DNA of 24,733 nucleotides from a virus: IMG/VR virus record IMGVR_UViG_3300021432_000096, positions 1-24,733 of that record. The stretch is one strand, 5' to 3'. Under the pieces are notes generated by a model, which did no database searches, was not told where the DNA came from, and saw nothing but the letters and a program-made list of their open reading frames with translations. Below, piece by piece: positions 283 to 24,733 of the stretch (positions are counted from its first letter, which is position 1; each line of letters opens with the position of its first letter). A program made the position numbers and the translations under genes.

Positions 283-2841
283 CTAGAGCATCTGGACCAC
301 GGTCTCCGGCTGCACCGTCGAGGGCAGCGCTTGGAAATGCAGCGTGAAGTTCATCAGCGAGAACGCCGCCGTGTTGCTGTTCTCGAGGTAGTCGATCTGG
401 AGGTACTCCGCGAGCGCCAGGAAGATCGCTCGGAGATACTGCTTCGCCATGCTGCCTCCGAGGCGGTCCACGTCCAGCCGACTCACATCCAAGATGAACC
501 CTCCACTCGGCAGCACGGGCACCGTGAACGAGCCGCCCCCAGCGAACTGTCCGAAGACCGTCACGACAATCGACGCCGCCGTCTGGGGATGGAAGACCGC
601 ATTCAGCATGCGCCCCCGGACCACGTAGCCCTTGCCGGCCGGGGCGAACCAGCTCGTCCGATACTGGAACGGATAGGGAAGCGCCCCGGCGTCCCCGGTC
701 CCCGTATCCATCCGGAGCACGTCCCCTTGCCGGCTCCCGACCACCACCTGATCCGGGCCGGTCTCCGAGTGCGTCACGCAGGAAGCCGTATAGCCGAGCG
801 GCCACTGCTGTGGCGTCGTGCTCGTTCCGTCGCCCAGCCGGTCCACGTCCAGATGGCTCTGGTCCAAGATGAAGGCGTTCGGAGGACGTCCATCGGGCAG
901 CCGGGGTACCGACCACTCCGACCAGCCGTGGGGCTGCCCCTCCACGCTCCCCTCGAACTGATAGACTAACTGCTCGGAAGGCTCGTCATTCGAGTCCATG
1001 GCAAACCAGACCCGGAGCTGGCGGCGCTGGCGGAAGAAGACCGCATGCGTCACCGGCTGCCGCCCAGCCGTCAAGCGATCGAACTCGGCGTCGATTGGCC
1101 GGCTGATCCGCTGGCTCTCGAATCCGGACTGGAACCCGATCCACCGGCTGATCCGGTAGAACCCGTCCTGCCCGGGGAAGATCACCTCGTTCTGGTCCGA
1201 CACGATGGCCTTCTGGTTGAAGACGCCGACGCCCGTCTGGTCCTGCCGGAAGATCACCGGCTGAATGTCGAGCGACGGGGGCGTCCCCGACACCCGGAAG
1301 ATCGACCGGGCCTTGAAGACGAGGATCGAGTCGAAGGACGGGATCGTCGCCCGGGGCTTGTCCCCATCGTCGTAGTTGACGAGGATCTGGTTGTCCGGCG
1401 GCCACGCCTCCGGCTTGAGGAATCCCTCCTCCAGATCGGGCTGGTCGGAGAACACGATCACCCCGAGCGTCTGGTTGATGCCGATGAGGCTGTTCGCTCC
1501 GGGCCAGAGCGCGATCACCGACACCAGCCCGTCGGCACCCACACCGTCCGGCATCACGAAGTCGAGGAACTCCCGCATGAGGATGCCCAGGTCCACGTCC
1601 GGAATAGCGTCCACGTAGACCACCGTCAGCGTCGGCGGGTTCGGAATCTCCGCCAGGAAGTACCACGCTCCGGCGCCCCCGGCCGTGGTCCGGTAGATCC
1701 GGATCTGGTCGACCTGCGGGTCGGGGGAGCGGGTCAAGGTCAGCGCCGCGCCTTGCCCAGCCAGGGTCAGCGGCGCTGCCATTTCCGGGCTGGGTTCGGA
1801 TTCCTGTCCGGTGATGCTGTTCCGGAACTTGTAGCGCCACGTGTAGTCGCCTGTATTCGGCCCCGCTGCCACCACCGCTGGCACGGGCTCGATCGGGGGC
1901 AGTACCCCGGAGCGCTGGATGACGCTCCCGTTGTACTTCACGGGCGGCGTATTGGCCGACACGATGTGCGTCAGGTTCGCGTGCTGGACGAAGTGCGTGT
2001 CGCCCGGCACCCGCTGCGGGAAGAGCGTCACGAGCGCCCCCGGTGCGGGTGGCGTCACCGTCGGGGGCGACACCGTGATCGTCCGGGTCGAGAAGACCAC
2101 GCTGATAACGCGCCCGTGGTAGGTCGCTCCCCCGACCCCTGCTCCGGCGATCTGGATGTACTCACCCGGGAAGGGCCCTGCCGCCCCCCGGATGGTCTGC
2201 ACGTTCGTCAACGTGCCGCTCGCCGTCGTCGGCCAAGGCGCATCCACCGTCGTCGTAGGGAAGTTCTCCGGGATCCGGAGCGACGCTGCCGGCGACTGCA
2301 CCACGGTGAAGATGCCGTCCCCGCAGGCAGCGATCAGATGACTCGTCCCATTCCGGAAGTTCGACTGGAAGAGCCCATCCACGCGGGCGGTCCCGTTCAG
2401 CGGATGCCGAACGAAAATGAAGAACCCGAGCCGGGGCAGCACCGTCGACCCCGTGACCGTGATGAGGTTCCCTGCCTTCGCAGCGAGGAAGCCCAAGCTG
2501 GAATTGGTCGCCGTCCCGTCCGAGATGATGACGGTGTCGCCCACGAGAAAGCCCGAAGCATCCACCACGAGTCCCTGCATCGTGACGCCCCCGAGGGCGT
2601 CCACGTCCAAGTGGCTGACGTCGAGGATGAAGTTCGAGAGCGCCCCCGACACCCAGCCGCCGAGGGCCGTCGTCCCCCAGCCGTTCAGGTACTGGGTGCC
2701 CTGCCGCTTCCCAATGACCCCGCCGTAGAACTCGACGTTCCGGGCGATCTCGGCGTAGAGCGGGTCGAGGTCGAGGTCCTGCTTCCGGGAGAGGAGCCCC
2801 TTCCAGGCGGGCTCAAAGTCGAGCTTCTGCTTTTCTTGCAC
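283..2841 (-). CDS. Large beta-rich tail/connector structural protein
   Basis: This 852-aa protein starts with GTG at 2841, behind a GAGGT ribosome-binding site that overlaps the previous gene's stop. It has no signal peptide. The middle (about residues 330-420) reads YTWRYKFRNSITGQESEPSP followed by IRIYRTTAGG, which looks like a fibronectin-III-like domain. The stretch after it, with ILVFKARSIFRVSG and EVIFPGQDGFYRISRWIGF, resembles the beta-propeller/beta-sandwich hub of phage tail-tube and DNA-stabilising proteins (P22 gp10 or T7 gp12 type). That comparison is by style only. A 14-residue motif, FILD-x-S-x-LDVD-x-LG, occurs three times, near residues 70, 656 and 780. It follows the probable adaptor gene by 9 bases, which fits the usual order adaptor, then tail hub. 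The general role as a virion neck or tail protein is fairly safe; the exact role is not. Confidence 0.7.
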   Translation of the reverse strand: MQEKQKLDFEPAWKGLLSRKQDLDLDPLYAEIARNVEFYGGVIGKRQGTQYLNGWGTTALGGWVSGALSNFILDVSHLDVDALGGVTMQGLVVDASGFLVGDTVIISDGTATNSSLGFLAAKAGNLITVTGSTVLPRLGFFIFVRHPLNGTARVDGLFQSNFRNGTSHLIAACGDGIFTVVQSPAASLRIPENFPTTTVDAPWPTTASGTLTNVQTIRGAAGPFPGEYIQIAGAGVGGATYHGRVISVVFSTRTITVSPPTVTPPAPGALVTLFPQRVPGDTHFVQHANLTHIVSANTPPVKYNGSVIQRSGVLPPIEPVPAVVAAGPNTGDYTWRYKFRNSITGQESEPSPEMAAPLTLAGQGAALTLTRSPDPQVDQIRIYRTTAGGAGAWYFLAEIPNPPTLTVVYVDAIPDVDLGILMREFLDFVMPDGVGADGLVSVIALWPGANSLIGINQTLGVIVFSDQPDLEEGFLKPEAWPPDNQILVNYDDGDKPRATIPSFDSILVFKARSIFRVSGTPPSLDIQPVIFRQDQTGVGVFNQKAIVSDQNEVIFPGQDGFYRISRWIGFQSGFESQRISRPIDAEFDRLTAGRQPVTHAVFFRQRRQLRVWFAMDSNDEPSEQLVYQFEGSVEGQPHGWSEWSVPRLPDGRPPNAFILDQSHLDVDRLGDGTSTTPQQWPLGYTASCVTHSETGPDQVVVGSRQGDVLRMDTGTGDAGALPYPFQYRTSWFAPAGKGYVVRGRMLNAVFHPQTAASIVVTVFGQFAGGGSFTVPVLPSGGFILDVSRLDVDRLGGSMAKQYLRAIFLALAEYLQIDYLENSNTAAFSLMNFTLHFQALPSTVQPETVVQML

Positions 2842-9643: not shown

Positions 9644-12600
9644 CTACGCCGCCGTGGCTGATGCTGCATGTCCTGCATCTTGGGAAGGTGCGGGCCCGTT
9701 TGCAACGGGCGGTCCGCCGCCCGGAGGTCCCGGGGGCGCATTGCCTGCCCCGGGCGGCCCTCCCGGACCCGGCGGGGCGCTCTGCATCTGCGTCTGCAAC
9801 TGCTGGAGCAAGGCCATCTTGTGGGCCTGATAGTGCTGCATGTAGGCCATCTTCGCCGCCGGGCTCTTGGCGTCGAACGACGGGTCCTTGATCTGCGGCA
9901 GGATATCCATGAGGTGCGTCTCGTTGTTGTCGGTCTCGTTGATCGGCACCTGCTGCCCCTGATCGAGGATGCTGTTCTCCTTCTGCTGACGGCGCCGGTC
10001 CGGGCCGATCTCGGTCTCGAAGTCCTGCAGGTTCAACCGCTCGATGATCTTCTGCCGCTGCACCGGGTCCTGCGGGTTCAGCAAGCCCTGCTCGATGCCG
10101 TCGAAGATGTTCTGGATCTCCGCCGACCGGGAGCGGGGAATGAGACTCGCCGGGTCCACGCTGACGTCCGTGTTGCCCTGCAGGTCGGTCCCCTTGAAGT
10201 ATTGCACCTGCCAATCGGACCCGGGGCCCATGATCCGGATGGTCCGCTCCTGCGGGTAGTGCTGCTGCACGAGCAGAAGCCGCTTGTGCCCCCGCTTGGC
10301 AATGGTCTGCCCCCACCGCTGGAGCCGGGGTACCGCATCCTCCTCGGCCTTCTCCTTGAGAAGGTTGAGCGCGATGCCAGACTTCACGCCCTGCGGGAGG
10401 TCCTGCACGCCCATGCGGCGGTCCTGTGCCAACTCGTCCATGGACGTGAAGCATGCCTGCCGCTCCTCGTAGATCTGGGCGGGGAGGGGCTGCCCGGGCA
10501 CGATCTGGGGCGCCGCAGCCGTCCCGATCGTGTTGTAGAAGATCCACGTCCCGGGGCGCATCTGCTGCATCGCCGGGGTGATGCCTGCACCCTTCGGAGC
10601 GATCACGTGTGGATTCAACATGGTCTTCCGGTTCAGGATGACCTGCGCGTCGATCCCGTTGATCCGCCGCTGGAGCGCCACCATGTCCTCGGCCGGCGTC
10701 CGCCCAGCAAACCGCCCGGGCACCATGTCGTACTTGAACTCGGTGTAGCTGAAATCCCCGGTCGGGGTGCCGTTCTCGTCCTGAATCGGCAGGTCGCCTT
10801 GATAGAGAAGCACCCCGTTCGCCACGATCGCCAGCAGGCCCCGGGGGAACATCTGGGAGGGCTTCTCTTCGTACCGGCGGAGCACCGCCCCGTGGGCGAG
10901 ATACTGGCTACCCCCTTGGTGGGCGCTTCCCTGCATGGACGGCCCGACCAGCGAGAGGAGGGACGATTCGAAGAAGTTGGCGGCGTCGATCCCCGTCTCC
11001 TGCCCGACGTAGGGGCCAAACTCGGGGAAGTTCCGGTCGATCCAGTCGAGGTCTGCGTAGGTCGCCTCGCCGCACCACTGGGCCTGCTCGAGCTTCGTCG
11101 CCTTCGGGTCCCAGTAGAAGTTGAAGAGCATCCGGACGTAGGTCTCGACCTCCCCTTCGGGAATCTCGTCCACAATGGGCTGCCCCGCCTGCGGGTGGGG
11201 CGCCCCCTCCTCATCCAGCTCGGGATGGGTCTCCGGCTGGAGGCTTGCCGTCATCGCCGGCTGCCCATTCGAGAAGGTCTGGGGGACCTGCCCCGCCTGA
11301 TACTGCGCCTGCCCGCAGGTCTGACAGGTCTGCCCAACCATCTGCGGGTCGGTCGTGGCGTGGCAGTTCGGGCAGACCGCCGCCGGCTTCATGGCAGGGG
11401 TCCGGATGACCTGCATCCGGGGCACCCGGAGCACCTTCCCCGCCTGCGGGTTGAAGATGTCGAGGAAGATCACTGTGCCACAGAGCGCCGCGACGAGCCC
11501 GGCTTCCTGCCGGAGCTCGTCCTCACTCGTCACGTCATCGAGGTAGGCTAGAACCTTGTCGCCCACCCCCGCCGCTTCCCGATCCTTCGGGTCCGTGGTG
11601 TTCGGGCGCACACGCCCTGCCGGGCGCACGCGGAGGAGCTGTGCCGTCATAGCGGCCAGCCGGGGCGCCATGGCGTTCGTGACGGGGGTCGGGAACCACG
11701 CGGGGGCACTCCAGCGGGTAAAGCGCCGCGTATTCTCGGAATACTCGATCCACTGGATGCCGCAGTTGTGAACGATGTAGCCATTCGCGACGAAGGTGCC
11801 CGTGGAGGTCTGGATGTCCACCACCTCGCACTCGCCCACATCCCACTCGATCGCGACAACTCGCTCCGTCGCAAGCGGCTTCGCGCAGACATCACCTGCC
11901 TCGATCACCTTTCTGAGAGCTTGGCGGAGTCGAACACTCGGAACCTGCTGAAGTACCCGGATCGTCGTCTGCGCCCCACCATGCGCGTAGATCGTCAGGC
12001 ATTCTTCTGTCCCGCTGGGCACAGGCTCGGAGAGGCTCACTCCAAGGCGTCCCATCAGGTTGATCGCACGTTCTAGGACAAGACCCGGATTCTGGCAGAA
12101 GGCGAGGCCACCACTCCCCATACGTTTCCGCGTTGGGGAAAGCCCGATGTTTTTGATCGTTCCCTCACCATCCAGGAAGCCACCGAGCCAACCGCGATCT
12201 TCAGGCGCGAGGGAAGGGCTCGGGGCATAGCCCACCACGACCAGCGAGCCCATATCTAGCTCACGGGCTTCACGCCATTCCCGTGTTCGGGGATAGTCAC
12301 CAGAACCCGGCTCCATGAGCACGCGATGGTCCGGAGTCAGAGTCAGACTGCGCCCGCTACTGAGGTGCAGCCTCAAGCAACGACGGCGTGAAGTCCGAAC
12401 GGCCTCTACCGTAGCAACTCGCCAATGCCGCTGCTCATCCCCACCCTTTGCGGCTCGACCCGGAGCACCACTCGCCTCGTCCGGAGCCAGCAGGCGGTCC
12501 CCCACTTGGAGAGCACTGATCGGAACCTCCGTGAAGTCCGACCGTAGGACGGGCGTACTCGCTTCTAGGCAGTAGAAGGCAATGGTCTCGAAGATCTGCC

Positions 12601-12796
12601 GTTCCAGCGCCCACCGGGACGTAACCCGGTTCGACCAGCTAATCCGCTCCTGCACCCGGCGAATGATCTCGTCTGCCCCGTCAGGCTTGACGGTATCGTA
12701 CCCCTCCTGCTGCTTCCGCCCCTCCCCGGCAGACCCGGAGAGGCCCACGCTCTGCTGGGATTGGTAGGAGCCGGGATTCGGGGTCTCAGCGGCCAC
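9644..12796 (-). CDS. Portal protein precursor, interrupted by an intein
   Basis: The precursor has 1050 aa and starts with GTG at 12796. Removal of residues 76-344 (the intein) would leave a 781-aa portal, the size of the large portals found in short-tailed phages. The splice joins the sequence ending FETIAFY to CGIQWIEYSENTRRF, restoring the well-known portal region where a Tyr/Gly/Gln-Trp motif follows the first helices. Later sections include PAWFPTPVTNAMAPRLAAMT and AGRTPAEDMVALQRRINGID (stem/crown helices) and a Pro/Gly-rich tail after about residue 1000. A C-x2-C-x12-C-x2-C zinc-ribbon-like cluster sits at residues 475-494. The gene lies upstream of the scaffold and coat genes. The portal makes the dodecameric DNA channel at one capsid vertex; function without splicing is unlikely because the intein interrupts the core. 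Confidence 0.9.
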   Translation of the reverse strand: MAAETPNPGSYQSQQSVGLSGSAGEGRKQQEGYDTVKPDGADEIIRRVQERISWSNRVTSRWALERQIFETIAFYCLEASTPVLRSDFTEVPISALQVGDRLLAPDEASGAPGRAAKGGDEQRHWRVATVEAVRTSRRRCLRLHLSSGRSLTLTPDHRVLMEPGSGDYPRTREWREARELDMGSLVVVGYAPSPSLAPEDRGWLGGFLDGEGTIKNIGLSPTRKRMGSGGLAFCQNPGLVLERAINLMGRLGVSLSEPVPSGTEECLTIYAHGGAQTTIRVLQQVPSVRLRQALRKVIEAGDVCAKPLATERVVAIEWDVGECEVVDIQTSTGTFVANGYIVHNCGIQWIEYSENTRRFTRWSAPAWFPTPVTNAMAPRLAAMTAQLLRVRPAGRVRPNTTDPKDREAAGVGDKVLAYLDDVTSEDELRQEAGLVAALCGTVIFLDIFNPQAGKVLRVPRMQVIRTPAMKPAAVCPNCHATTDPQMVGQTCQTCGQAQYQAGQVPQTFSNGQPAMTASLQPETHPELDEEGAPHPQAGQPIVDEIPEGEVETYVRMLFNFYWDPKATKLEQAQWCGEATYADLDWIDRNFPEFGPYVGQETGIDAANFFESSLLSLVGPSMQGSAHQGGSQYLAHGAVLRRYEEKPSQMFPRGLLAIVANGVLLYQGDLPIQDENGTPTGDFSYTEFKYDMVPGRFAGRTPAEDMVALQRRINGIDAQVILNRKTMLNPHVIAPKGAGITPAMQQMRPGTWIFYNTIGTAAAPQIVPGQPLPAQIYEERQACFTSMDELAQDRRMGVQDLPQGVKSGIALNLLKEKAEEDAVPRLQRWGQTIAKRGHKRLLLVQQHYPQERTIRIMGPGSDWQVQYFKGTDLQGNTDVSVDPASLIPRSRSAEIQNIFDGIEQGLLNPQDPVQRQKIIERLNLQDFETEIGPDRRRQQKENSILDQGQQVPINETDNNETHLMDILPQIKDPSFDAKSPAAKMAYMQHYQAHKMALLQQLQTQMQSAPPGPGGPPGAGNAPPGPPGGGPPVANGPAPSQDAGHAASATAA
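11765..12571 (-). mobile_element. Intein with LAGLIDADG endonuclease in the portal gene
   Basis: The intein is 269 residues long, in frame with the portal. It starts with Cys1 (CLEASTPVLR, block A). It has block B with Thr79 and His82 (TLTPDHRVL) and a LAGLIDADG motif WLGGFLDGEGT at intein residues 128-138. It ends with block F/G (VVDIQTSTGTFVANGYIVHN), the penultimate His268 and Asn269; the first extein residue after it is Cys. All residues needed for standard class-1 splicing are present. Only one LAGLIDADG motif is visible, so the endonuclease would act as a dimer or be a reduced form. The single-motif core resembles the free-standing endonuclease at 13907-14452 in pattern. Confidence 0.93.
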
Positions 12797-13728: not shown

Positions 13729-13892
13729 GACCGCATCGTGCGGGCGAGGGCCTTCTGGCGCTTCACCCGGGTCGAGTCGCCCGGGTGGGCCTGCAGGTCC
13801 TTCGACGGGATGTTGTGGCCGGACTTCACCCCGAGAGACCGCCTGAGACTGCCCGGTCGTTTTATGGCGTCTTGCACCCACTTCTTTGCCAT
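13713..13892 (-). CDS. Small basic phage protein (59 aa), intact copy next to a homing gene
   Basis: ATG at 13892 is preceded by GGAGG nine bases upstream. The peptide begins MAKKWVQDAIKRPGSLRRSL and continues LGVKSGHNIPSKDLQAHPGD. It is strongly basic and ends in RSWHHR. Short proteins starting with this type of W-V-x-x-AIK-x-PGSLR pattern are frequent in phage late operons and are of unknown role. The first 12 codons use A-ending codons (GCA, CAA, ATA, AAA, CGA), while the rest is GC-ending like its neighbours. A truncated copy with a similar beginning lies at 14480. This suggests that the 5' end arrived with the neighbouring homing endonuclease gene and replaced the original start. Confidence 0.75.
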   Translation of the reverse strand: MAKKWVQDAIKRPGSLRRSLGVKSGHNIPSKDLQAHPGDSTRVKRQKALARTMRSWHHR

Positions 13893-13906
13893 GCGACTCT
13901 GCCTCC

Positions 13907-14452
13907 ATGCCTGATCTATCCACAGACGCGATGGCCGGTTGGATCGCAGGATTCTTCGACGGCGAGGGTTCCGTGATTCACCGAACACAGTGCAGCGGCA
14001 AGCGACACACAACGTACTTCCTCACTGTCGGGAATACCGACCCAGTGCTGATGCACACCTGCTCCCGCTACCTGCTGGCACTCGGGATCGCACACACCGA
14101 GTTCCAAAATCGCAGGCGTCCACCACGTAAGCCATTCGCCGTTCTGCACATCTGCCGCGCAGAAGCGATCCAGCGATTCGCGAAGATCGTCCATCTCCAA
14201 GCACCCGAAAAACAGCGACGTCTCGAATGCATCCTGCGCTGGGTACAGCGCCCACGTATCTCTCGCTGGGACAAGCGCCGAGAAGCCATTGGGAACCTCT
14301 GGAAAGCCGGTCACTCGGTGCGCTGCATCGCTAACCAACTCGCAGTCAGAGGCTCCCACTCCCGCGTCAGCAATCAGATACGGCTCCTTGGGTTCACTGT
14401 GCCACCACAGGGGAAGGGGCGCAAAATCTGCCGTGATCCGGCGTGCGCTTGA
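13907..14452 (+). CDS. Free-standing LAGLIDADG homing endonuclease with C-terminal HTH
   Basis: This is the only gene on the plus strand. The chosen ATG at 13907 gives 181 aa; an upstream TTG is possible and no strong ribosome-binding site is seen. The single LAGLIDADG motif is WIAGFFDGEGS at residues 12-22. It is followed by the typical beta-strand and helix pattern (TYFLTVGNTDPVLMHTCSRY, then LLALGIAHTEFQNRR). Residues about 125-165 (REAIGNLWKAGHSVRCIANQ and following) look like a helix-turn-helix DNA-binding domain. With one motif it would act as a homodimer. It lies antisense to the operon; its start faces the intact 59-aa gene and its stop overlaps the truncated copy. Single-motif enzymes of this kind cut DNA at a long site and copy themselves into it. 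The DNA here is less GC-rich in codon choice than its surroundings. Confidence 0.88.
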   Translation: MPDLSTDAMAGWIAGFFDGEGSVIHRTQCSGKRHTTYFLTVGNTDPVLMHTCSRYLLALGIAHTEFQNRRRPPRKPFAVLHICRAEAIQRFAKIVHLQAPEKQRRLECILRWVQRPRISRWDKRREAIGNLWKAGHSVRCIANQLAVRGSHSRVSNQIRLLGFTVPPQGKGRKICRDPACA

Positions 14453-16376: not shown

Positions 16377-18916
<2,540 letters not shown>

Positions 18917-18920
<4 letters not shown>

Positions 18921-20701: not shown

Positions 20702-21078
20702 GCTGCCCTCATCCGCTCCCGTTCACGTTGGAGCAACTGCCGGATCGCCCGCGCCAGCCCCTCCGCCGTGATGTCGGGCAGCGTCGATTCCACGATGTAC
20801 CGGAACGTGTAAGGCCACGGGCACCCCGCGTTCTTCGCCCGCTCCCCGTCCACGTCCTCGATCCACGCGAGCACATTCAGCGCCAGTGCCCGCTCGATCT
20901 TGCCCGGGCCGAGTCCCCGCAGGAGATCCACCAGCATGTTGTCGAGCACACTGACGCGCAGCGCCTGCGCCGGGCCGCCGAGCCCGATCGTCTTGTGCAT
21001 CGCCCGCCACTGCACGGGCATCATCGCATCCAACTGGAAGCGGTAGTCCAAGTCGCGGAACTCTGGAACCGCTCTCAC
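20698..21078 (-). CDS. Helical protein of unknown function (126 aa)
   Basis: GTG at 21078 overlaps the stop of the HNH gene (GTGA), and its own stop overlaps the peptidase start. The peptide begins MRAVPEFRDLDYRFQLDAMM and has several helices, including ALRVSVLDNMLVDLLRGLG and IERALALNVLAWIEDVDGE. It ends with a basic helix. Its place directly before the endolysin could suggest a lysis partner, but no clear transmembrane helix is visible, so a holin assignment is not supported. Unknown function. Confidence 0.7.
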   Translation of the reverse strand: MRAVPEFRDLDYRFQLDAMMPVQWRAMHKTIGLGGPAQALRVSVLDNMLVDLLRGLGPGKIERALALNVLAWIEDVDGERAKNAGCPWPYTFRYIVESTLPDITAEGLARAIRQLLQRERERMRAA

Positions 21079-21608
21079 TGCAATACCTTCGTCGGGAAGT
21101 TCAACGAAGCAAACTCACCATGGGCACTACGAGCTGCTTCATCATAGGCCAGCGCCGCCTCCTCCGCTGTCGCAAAGAGGCCGATGTGCCGTCGCTTGCC
21201 ATCGACACGTATCAGGGCGGCGTACCGGCCACAGTGCTTCCAGTAGGTGACTCCGTGATACCCACTCGTGTTGTTGGACTGACGCTTTCGATTCCTCATG
21301 TTTTGAGCATGCGTCGCCAGTCGGAGGTTAGACCGTCGGTTATCCAACCCATCTCGGTTAACGTGATCTACGATCATCCCCACGGGAGCACCCATGATGA
21401 TTCGATGCATCCCCAAAGTCACCCCATGGACCGAGTGACTAACCGCGTAACAGGCCCCTGACCTGTCGCGTCGCACATTCCAGCGATACGGCGAGACAAG
21501 ATGTACGTCCGCCGCGTCAAGAATGGCCCGCACGCCGCCGGCCATCAGCACTACAGCAAGACCACCGGGCAGGTAGAGGTACTCATTCGGCCTGATTCGA
21601 CGCTTCAT
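21075..21608 (-). CDS. HNH-AP2 homing endonuclease
   Basis: The product has 177 aa; ATG at 21608 follows AGAGGGG and overlaps the previous stop (ATGA). The N-terminal about 70 residues form a beta-domain that ends in GMHRII. The HNH core follows: IVDHVNRDGLDNRRSNLRLA, with the catalytic His in DHVN and Asn/His positions in LDNRRSNLR. The C-terminal AP2-type DNA-binding domain runs from SGYHGVTYWK to about residue 170 (GLFATAEEAALAYDEAARSA). This is the standard architecture of free-standing HNH homing endonucleases in phages; they nick or cut a site in sister phages and copy themselves there. It is joined by overlapping codons to both neighbours, so it is likely co-transcribed. A relative begins at 224. 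Confidence 0.93.
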   Translation of the reverse strand: MKRRIRPNEYLYLPGGLAVVLMAGGVRAILDAADVHLVSPYRWNVRRDRSGACYAVSHSVHGVTLGMHRIIMGAPVGMIVDHVNRDGLDNRRSNLRLATHAQNMRNRKRQSNNTSGYHGVTYWKHCGRYAALIRVDGKRRHIGLFATAEEAALAYDEAARSAHGEFASLNFPTKVLQ

Positions 21609-21777: not shown

Positions 21778-21924
21778 TCAGCTCCTCCGGGTAAAGACCC
21801 GGTTCAGCTTCCGCATCTCCGCCGCCGAGCGCGGCTCGATGCTCCGTTGACTCTCGTGGCGCGGCTGCTGCTGCGCCCGGGGTCGCGTCTCGATCTTCCG
21901 CTTACTGATCGGGTCTCTTTTCAT
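21778..21924 (-). CDS. Small basic protein (48 aa)
   Basis: ATG at 21924 overlaps the stop of the large Thr-rich gene (ATGA). The peptide begins MKRDPISKRKIETRPRAQQQ and is rich in Arg, Lys and Gln; it ends KLNRVFTRRS. The stop lies two bases before the next start. It looks disordered and may bind nucleic acid or the preceding protein's product. A longer frame reading through the Thr tract is a shadow. Confidence 0.55.
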   Translation of the reverse strand: MKRDPISKRKIETRPRAQQQPRHESQRSIEPRSAAEMRKLNRVFTRRS

Positions 21925-24733
21925 ACGAGGGTTGTGGTGGTCACGCACCGCCGACACCGCTTGCCCCGGCAGGGGCGCGTGGTGGTCGTCACGGTGCTGG
22001 TGGTGGTGGTCGTCGTCGGAACCGTCGTCGTGGTGCTCGTCGTGGTGGTGGAGGTTGTAGTCGTCGTGGTCGTGGTTGGCAGCGTTATCGTCGTGGTGGT
22101 CGAAGTGGTCGTTGTAGTCGTCGTGGTGGTCGTCGTGGTTGTGGTTGTCGTGGTCGAGGTGGTGGTGGAAGTCGTTGTCGTGGTGGTTGTGGTGGTAGTC
22201 GTCGTGGTCGTCGTGGTTGTGCTGGTCGTCGTCGTGGTCGTGGTGGTGGTTGTGGTCGTCGTGATGCAGGTACAGGTTCCGACCACGTCCGCACAGACCT
22301 GACCCATCGGGCAATCCCCGACACAGGCCGGGTCCACCGCACCCGCGCACGAACTCCCAATGGTGGTCGTGGTCGTGGAGGTCGTCGTGGTCGTGGTTGT
22401 GGTGGTCGAGGTGGTGGTCGTCGTGGTGGTTGTTGTCGTCGTGGTCGTGGTCGTGGTGCTGGTGGTGGTCGTGGTAGTCGTCGTGGTCGTGGTCGTCGTC
22501 GTCGTGGAAGTGGTGGTCGTCGTGGTCGTTGTCGTTGTCGTTGTCGTCGTCGTCGTGGTGGTGCTGGTGGTTGTCGTCGTCGTTGACGTCGTGGTGGTGG
22601 TCGTGGTCGGCGGCACTTCGTCGTTCTCCAGCGCCAACGTCCGCGTGGTGCCCGGCACCAACACCTGCCGAAGGAACGTCGGTGCCGCCGGAGTCGTGAA
22701 GTCGTAGACCTCCACGCCCTGATTCGCGGACGCATGCGTGAGCGCCGGCACCGTCCCAAAGAGGAGTGCCGGACTCGTCCCGAAGGCGAGCAGCGCCGAC
22801 TCTGTCCGACCAGCAATCGACCCGAGGATCGTGACCGCCCCAGGCGTGGTCGTGTCCAGCGCCCGGATCGTCGTCAACCCGTCGTAGACATAGGCCCGGT
22901 TCGGGACCGTCGCATTCGCCACCACGGTCGCCGCCGTCGCGAACGTCCCGAGAAGCGTCGGGGCATTTGGGTTGGTGATGTCGACCGTCAGGAAGTTCGT
23001 CGTGGCCGCGAGGTAGGCCCGCGTGCCGGCGAGCGCCACGTCCGTCACCGCCGTCGCGGTATTCAGGCTGCTCGCGATGAAGGGGAAGGGCGGGTTCCCG
23101 ACATAGACCACCTGGAAGCCGGGATTCGTGCCCCCCGTCGCGATGTAGGCGTAGTTCCCCGTGACGCGGAGCACCTCGCCATTCGCCACCGTCACGCGCC
23201 CAAGGATGGCCGGGCTCGACGGCGTGGTGACGTTGATCGTCACGAGATCGGTGTGAGCCGGGTTCCCCGAGACCACCTCCAGCGCGTAGGCCGTGTTCCC
23301 GACCACAGCCATCCCCCTCAGAATCCGGTTGACCGCCATCGCGCCCGCGAGCGTCGGGGCATGGGGATTGGTTGCGCTCCCCACGTTCAGCTCGGGGAAG
23401 ACCAAGCTCCCTGTTGGCACCGGGGCCACGAGCGACGGATTGACTCCGATCCCGAAGCTCTCCGTGAGGCCGTAGCGATGCGTCAGGAGTGCCGGAGAGG
23501 TCGGGCTCGACACATCATAGGCGACGAGCCCCTGCTGTAAGGAGGCGTTCGGACTCGCCAGCAACGCCACGTTGTTCGGTGCCGCCGCGACACGCAGAGC
23601 ATTGTAGCCCCGCGCCACTCCCTGGAGCGACGGGCTCGAGAGATTCGACACGTTGACCGTCCGGAAGCCGTTCGCGTCCGTCCCGCTCACCGTGTAGAGC
23701 GTCGTGCCCTGCAGGGAGACCCCGACCGGCGCGAAGCCGCCCGCCGTGAAGGTGCTAAGCAGGATCGGGTTCCCGTTCCCGGTCACGTCAAGGATACGGA
23801 GGCTGGCCGAGTCCCCAACGAACGCCGTGGCTGCGTGACCACCTGACGAGCCCGTCACAGTGATGCCCTCGGCATCCGTTGTCGCCAGCGTCCCGGTGAG
23901 GGTCGGCACCGTCGGCGTCGCCGCGCTGGCGATCCGAACTCCCGAGGTGCCGAGAGCGAGGTACAACGTCGTCCCGGACAGCACCATGTCCTGACAGCCG
24001 TTCGGGAGCGCCACAGAGCCCATCACGGTCGGGCTCGACGGGTTACTCAGGTCGATTACCTGCAACGCCACCGTCGCCGGGTTCCCGGGCGTCGTCTTCA
24101 CGGAGTAGCCCCGGTTCCCGTTGGTCGCAGCGCAATGATAGACGCCCGCGAGGCTGCCCTTCGTGATCGGCGTTGCGGGCGTCGTCACGTCGACTACCGT
24201 GAGACCGCCCGCACCTTGTGCATTCAAGGACAGCGTACCCGAGACGGACACGCGGTCCCCCGTGAAGGGCGGATTCGCTCCTCCAAGCGGTGTCAGTGTG
24301 ACCGGGCTCCCGATGCTAACCGTAGAGAGCCCGAACTGATCGGAGGCGACATAGGCCCGATTCGCCCCCTGATCTACGATGACATCCTCGGCCTGCCCGA
24401 CATTCGGGACGAAGCCGACGAGAGCCTGCGGGCTCGTCAGGCGGATGACGTCGACTACGGCGGCGGAGTCGCTGGCGTAGATGACTGGGCCAAGGATGGT
24501 GGTGCTCGTAGTGGTACTGGTGGAAGTGGTGGTCGTGCTTGCAGCGGTGGTGGAAGTCGTGGTGCTGGTCGTGGTCGTCGTAGAAGGAACGGTGGTAGTG
24601 GTGCTAGTGGTTGTCGTAGTCGTGGTGGGCGGCACGGATGATGTGGTCGTGGTCGACAGAAAGGTCGTCGTCGTAGACGAACCCCCAGTCGTCGTGGTGG
24701 TCGTGCCCCCGCCGGAGGTCGTCGTGGTCGACG
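21921..24733 (-). CDS. Giant Thr-rich, mucin-like LVIVD beta-propeller protein (5' end outside window)
   Basis: The frame is open to the window end at 24733, so the true start lies outside; 936 residues are visible. In order they are a Thr/Ser stalk with Gly-rich breaks (24733-24497) and a beta-propeller of about 625 residues (about 24494-22620). A second Thr/Ser stalk (22614-22364) is followed by a six-Cys module (IGSSCAGAVDPACVGD, then CPMGQVCADVVGTCTC). A third stalk follows, and then a Cys-rich tail (RPCRGKRCRRC). In the propeller a motif of the form N/T-P-x-x-P-x-x-x-G-x repeats about twelve times (for example NPSSPTVMGS, TPSSPAILGR, NPNAPTLLGT), as in LVIVD repeats. Such proteins are secreted or surface proteins in bacteria; Thr runs are potential O-glycosylation stalks. 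It is followed by a 48-aa gene overlapping its stop. Confidence 0.75.
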   Translation of the reverse strand, partial: STTTTSGGGTTTTTTGGSSTTTTFLSTTTTSSVPPTTTTTTTSTTTTVPSTTTTTSTTTSTTAASTTTTSTSTTTSTTILGPVIYASDSAAVVDVIRLTSPQALVGFVPNVGQAEDVIVDQGANRAYVASDQFGLSTVSIGSPVTLTPLGGANPPFTGDRVSVSGTLSLNAQGAGGLTVVDVTTPATPITKGSLAGVYHCAATNGNRGYSVKTTPGNPATVALQVIDLSNPSSPTVMGSVALPNGCQDMVLSGTTLYLALGTSGVRIASAATPTVPTLTGTLATTDAEGITVTGSSGGHAATAFVGDSASLRILDVTGNGNPILLSTFTAGGFAPVGVSLQGTTLYTVSGTDANGFRTVNVSNLSSPSLQGVARGYNALRVAAAPNNVALLASPNASLQQGLVAYDVSSPTSPALLTHRYGLTESFGIGVNPSLVAPVPTGSLVFPELNVGSATNPHAPTLAGAMAVNRILRGMAVVGNTAYALEVVSGNPAHTDLVTINVTTPSSPAILGRVTVANGEVLRVTGNYAYIATGGTNPGFQVVYVGNPPFPFIASSLNTATAVTDVALAGTRAYLAATTNFLTVDITNPNAPTLLGTFATAATVVANATVPNRAYVYDGLTTIRALDTTTPGAVTILGSIAGRTESALLAFGTSPALLFGTVPALTHASANQGVEVYDFTTPAAPTFLRQVLVPGTTRTLALENDEVPPTTTTTTTSTTTTTTSTTTTTTTTTTTTTTTTTTSTTTTTTTTTTTTTTTSTTTTTTTTTTTTTTTTSTTTTTTTTTSTTTTTIGSSCAGAVDPACVGDCPMGQVCADVVGTCTCITTTTTTTTTTTTTSTTTTTTTTTTTTTTTTTSTTTSTTTTTTTTTTTTTTTTTSTTTTITLPTTTTTTTTSTTTTSTTTTVPTTTTTTSTVTTTTRPCRGKRCRRCVTTTTLV
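21975..22263 (-). repeat. Third Thr/Ser-coding tract
   Basis: A near-continuous run of ACN codons with scattered TCN/AGC codons, forming an imperfect trinucleotide microsatellite (GTC/GTG/GTA units on the plus strand). Period three keeps the frame when units are lost or gained. Confidence 0.85.
22364..22614 (-). repeat. Second Thr/Ser-coding tract
   Basis: An imperfect trinucleotide tract encoding about 84 residues, nearly all Thr with single Ser at intervals. It separates the beta-propeller from the six-Cys module and would be a rigid stalk. On the plus strand it produces long Val-rich open frames that are artefacts. Confidence 0.85.
24497..24733 (-). repeat. First Thr/Ser-coding tract, cut by window end
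   Basis: A Thr/Ser tract with Gly-Gly-Gly and SS breaks that reaches the window end, showing the protein continues outside. It precedes the beta-propeller. Confidence 0.8.

Follow-up and report, generated by a model that had tools for sequence, protein, structure and literature searches.

The predicted portal protein gene of an uncultivated tailed phage is interrupted by a complete intein of 269 codons, which very probably splices and carries a predicted single-motif LAGLIDADG homing endonuclease. The phage is a bacterial virus known from environmental DNA alone, and the whole stretch of its DNA that was analysed (IMGVR_UViG_3300021432_000096, 24,733 nt) is called the window here. The minus-strand open reading frame at positions 9644-12796 starts with GTG and is translated into a precursor of 1050 amino acids. 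The intein (11765-12571, minus strand) corresponds exactly to precursor residues 76-344. It is preceded by an N-extein of 75 residues ending in ...ETIAFY (12572-12796, minus strand) and followed by a C-extein of 706 residues plus the stop codon, starting with CGIQWIEY (9644-11764, minus strand). The two flanks joined without the insert code for a 781-amino acid protein. A sequence-only reading of this DNA had placed a complete intein with all its splicing residues in a portal protein; translation shows the placement to be correct to the base, and profiles, residues and predicted fold bear out its identity.

The extein flanks match PHROG portal family 156 in a profile search (1.2e-11). Removal of the insert improves the match to the Pfam family P22_portal from 3.1e-4 to 1.2e-5, the alignment then spanning the junction. 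The joined portal of the window alone reaches 24.5 bits, slightly under the cut-off of 26.1, and the profile is matched by seven of the eight aligned portals, the best at 6.2e-13. The major head protein, co-located with the portal, is 62-75% identical in the relatives, which also have further head genes of the same area in common. Profile match and head-gene neighbourhood thus both identify the host protein, at the level of sequence, as a P22-like portal. Comparison of the portal profile with solved structures yielded no portal match, no prophage copy of the portal was confirmed among 84,980 genomes and an Rfam scan of the window gave no match.

The C-extein codes also for a zinc-ribbon-like insert of the form C-x-x-C ... 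C-x-x-C (11315-11374, minus strand) whose four cysteines are all invariant in eight portals. Elsewhere in the window, the translation of a predicted virion protein gene (286-2841, minus strand) displays three copies of a motif F-I-L-D-x-S-x-L-D-V-D-x-L-G. Two other minus-strand genes code for a collagen-like protein with Gly-Pro-Thr repeats (16377-18920) and for a large protein that contains very long runs of threonine (21921-24635), which are perhaps fibres or surface proteins.

The insert has the full set of class 1 splicing residues. Cys1, the first nucleophile (12569-12571, minus strand), is invariant in 28 aligned inteins, as is His82 of the block B motif TPDH, which also provides Thr79 (12326-12337, minus strand). 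Block G ends in His268-Asn269 (11765-11770, minus strand) and is followed by the second nucleophile Cys+1, the first residue of the C-extein (11762-11764, minus strand). An NCBIfam model of intein-bearing proteins matches residues 1-269 at 8.6e-14, and the Pfam families Intein_splicing (8.3e-7) and Hint (2.2e-4) are also found, both under their curated cut-offs. The AlphaFold2 model, built on the intein and 28 related inteins (pLDDT 88.7, pTM 0.85), has a Hint fold that superposes on the splicing domain of the Mycobacterium tuberculosis RecA intein (2in0) with a Z score of 19.4 and an rmsd of 1.8 over 133 residues. Structure comparison by Foldseek and VIA-align likewise groups the model with inteins, among them the endonuclease-bearing TliVMA intein (E 8.4e-10). 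Together with a best tblastn match of 5e-16 to phage records, the NCBIfam and Hint-fold scores put the intein signal far beyond chance.

Portals that lack the insert complete this picture. Those of seven viral contigs (L002-L008), 772-792 residues long and 52-57% identical, run uninterrupted through the junction, and four more (L047, L049, L050 and L052; 49-53% identical) are also devoid of the insert. Because the reading frame of the gene continues through the segment, it could in principle be a permanent, folded part of the portal that is never spliced out. Its entire absence from eleven portals at 49-57% identity, the full splicing residue set and the predicted intein fold make this reading extremely improbable. 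The splicing residues and the predicted fold point instead to class 1 splicing.

The sequence-only reading had described the insertion site as conserved. This holds for the G-I-Q-W sequence just after the +1 position, which is invariant in 11/11 intein-free portals; distant portals from Microbacterium phage Shocker and an uncultured podovirus have G-x-Q-W at the same place. It does not hold for the +1 residue itself, which is C, A, S, N, E or L in the intein-free relatives, so that only the cysteine-bearing subset suits the intein of the window. A cysteine is native at this position in L002, L004, L005 and L006. An AlphaFold2 model of the L005 portal (pLDDT 40) was unusable for placing the site in the portal structure. 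The joined site is spanned by the 29 bases GCCTTCTACTGCGGCATCCAGTGGATCGA, an exact copy of which is present in one of the eleven intein-free portals, that of contig IMGVR_UViG_3300047160_003727. This copy is a candidate for the target expected for homing of the intein. No allelic intein at the same portal site was found in the collections searched.

Residues 121-226, approximately, form a single mixed helix/strand domain of LAGLIDADG endonuclease type in the AlphaFold2 model (11894-12211, minus strand). It holds the only LAGLIDADG motif of the intein, GWLGGFLDGEG, at residues 127-137 (12161-12193, minus strand). Two residues of the endonuclease, E136 and Q160, do not vary across all 28 related inteins. 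None of the Pfam LAGLIDADG profiles reached E 1 in the window intein; LAGLIDADG_3 is matched by three of its relatives (L009, L012 and L019). Single-motif LAGLIDADG enzymes usually act as dimers. The presence of only one motif implies that the enzyme would need either to dimerise or to have a degenerate second half, and palindromy at the insertion site, which a dimeric enzyme of this type might favour, is not above background.

Base composition suggests that the intein is a recent arrival from another genome. Its third-position GC (GC3) is 0.651 compared to 0.877 for the portal, 0.859-0.937 for every 807-base stretch of the extein and 0.926 for the head protein gene, and similarly low values are found in two other homing-endonuclease genes of the window. 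The first is a free-standing LAGLIDADG_3 gene (13886-14452, plus strand; Pfam 1.6e-10, GC3 0.667) that lies on the opposite strand, 1.1 kb upstream of the portal start, and is possibly a related mobile element. The second combines HNH_3 and AP2 domains (21075-21608, minus strand; GC3 0.640). We rejected the idea that the intein gave rise to the free-standing LAGLIDADG gene, as the two match in the 13-residue motif only. This gene, divergent from a small conserved gene of the head region, has also a weak helix-turn-helix match and gave no match in phage records. It is conceivable, though improbable in our view, that the intein shares its foreign origin with both the free-standing LAGLIDADG gene and the HNH-AP2 gene (at 21 kb) and moves with them as a single set. 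The free-standing enzyme would then cleave DNA close to the portal gene in rival phages that lack the intein and so promote its spread along with the flanking head genes. No donor of the intein can be named, since its best identity to other inteins is 33-35% and in a tree of 25 inteins its branch is long and its placement unresolved.

Homing is suggested by three features, namely the endonuclease domain, the empty targets and the foreign composition, and on balance we favour an active embedded endonuclease. A less probable reading, to be taken seriously nonetheless, is that the intein splices while its endonuclease is inactive or never acts on the portal site. The element would then persist because its precise loss is rare and its decay would kill the portal. 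The single LAGLIDADG motif, the lack of a palindromic target and the lack of a close allele in the collections searched are in line with such inactivity. The retention of E136 and Q160 in a domain predicted with high confidence, the recent arrival suggested by the low GC3 and the existence of an exact empty target in another phage speak against it.

The element is thus best described as a putative mobile class 1 intein; it occupies a P22-like portal gene, and its sequence includes a predicted LAGLIDADG homing endonuclease of the single-motif kind. Splicing would follow translation of the precursor: Cys1 would attack the Tyr-Cys bond, the chain would be handed to Cys+1 and Asn269 would cyclise, releasing a portal joined as ...AFY-CGIQW.... 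At the DNA level, cleavage of intein-free portal genes by the endonuclease at the joined site would be followed by repair that copies the intein in. Because a conserved sequence motif adjoins the site, it is plausible that virion assembly depends on splicing.

Searches for relatives gave 137 full-length matches by tblastn against phage records, the best of which are Gordonia phage portal inteins that align over all 269 residues. The closest inteins are 24-35% identical and reside in other phage genes, including the Gordonia phage portals. The proteins that host relatives of the intein are metallophosphoesterases, a methylase-like protein, terminases, a polymerase, a helicase, RecA and another portal; relatives are also present in a few bacterial genomes. 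Single-sequence search of viral contigs revealed no close copies, relatives being found there by family profile only. Terminase-like inteins of cluster C1 mycobacteriophages are 28-29% identical to the window intein over its full length, but are inserted in a terminase-like protein. A cluster C1 terminase intein, which probably falls in one group with the C1 terminase matches found here (probably Pham3880-g), spliced in a reporter and left visible precursor (PMC5050341); its splicing counts in favour of splicing by the window intein. The visible precursor, and a position beside G-x-Q-W that would tie portal function to splicing, are compatible with conditional splicing, by which the intein would control virion assembly in the manner of a switch. 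We found no regulatory feature, however, and this role is unlikely.

Portal inteins are uncommon, as the sequence-only reading had stated, but they have already been described. Six were counted in cluster C1 mycobacteriophages by Kelley et al. 2016 (PMC5050341), the GenBank annotation of phage JayJay includes an 'intein-containing portal protein' and tblastn implies their presence in 17 Gordonia Woesvirus-type records. The Woesvirus-type intein of Anamika gp8 is of the same family as that of the window: it aligns end to end with 31.8% identity, has a single LAGLIDADG motif and interrupts a portal gene. Its host protein is however a Mu-like portal (Pfam Portal_Mu, PHROG 113) rather than a P22-like one, and the insertion follows about residue 349 instead of lying in the N-terminal G-x-Q-W motif. 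The C1 portal (PORT) inteins (PMC5050341) likewise have an endonuclease motif and reside in a portal gene, but in the example examined, JayJay gp96, the portal family is unrelated (PHROG 2833 type), the site is ...IRHW / CRLFY... and the intein sequence is distant. A cluster C1-type portal gene with two inteins was also observed in viral contig L016 (2879-6706). No earlier report of an intein at the portal site of the window was found in the part of the literature covered.

The novelty lies in where the intein is inserted: the N-terminal G-x-Q-W motif of P22-like portals joins the few sites from which portal inteins are known. The window and contig IMGVR_UViG_3300047160_003727 provide a matched pair from different phages, in which the portal gene of the first bears the intein and that of the second contains the exact target in its empty form. 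The occurrence of this intein family in phage terminases, portals, polymerases, RecA and helicases supports repeated jumping of its members between packaging and replication genes.
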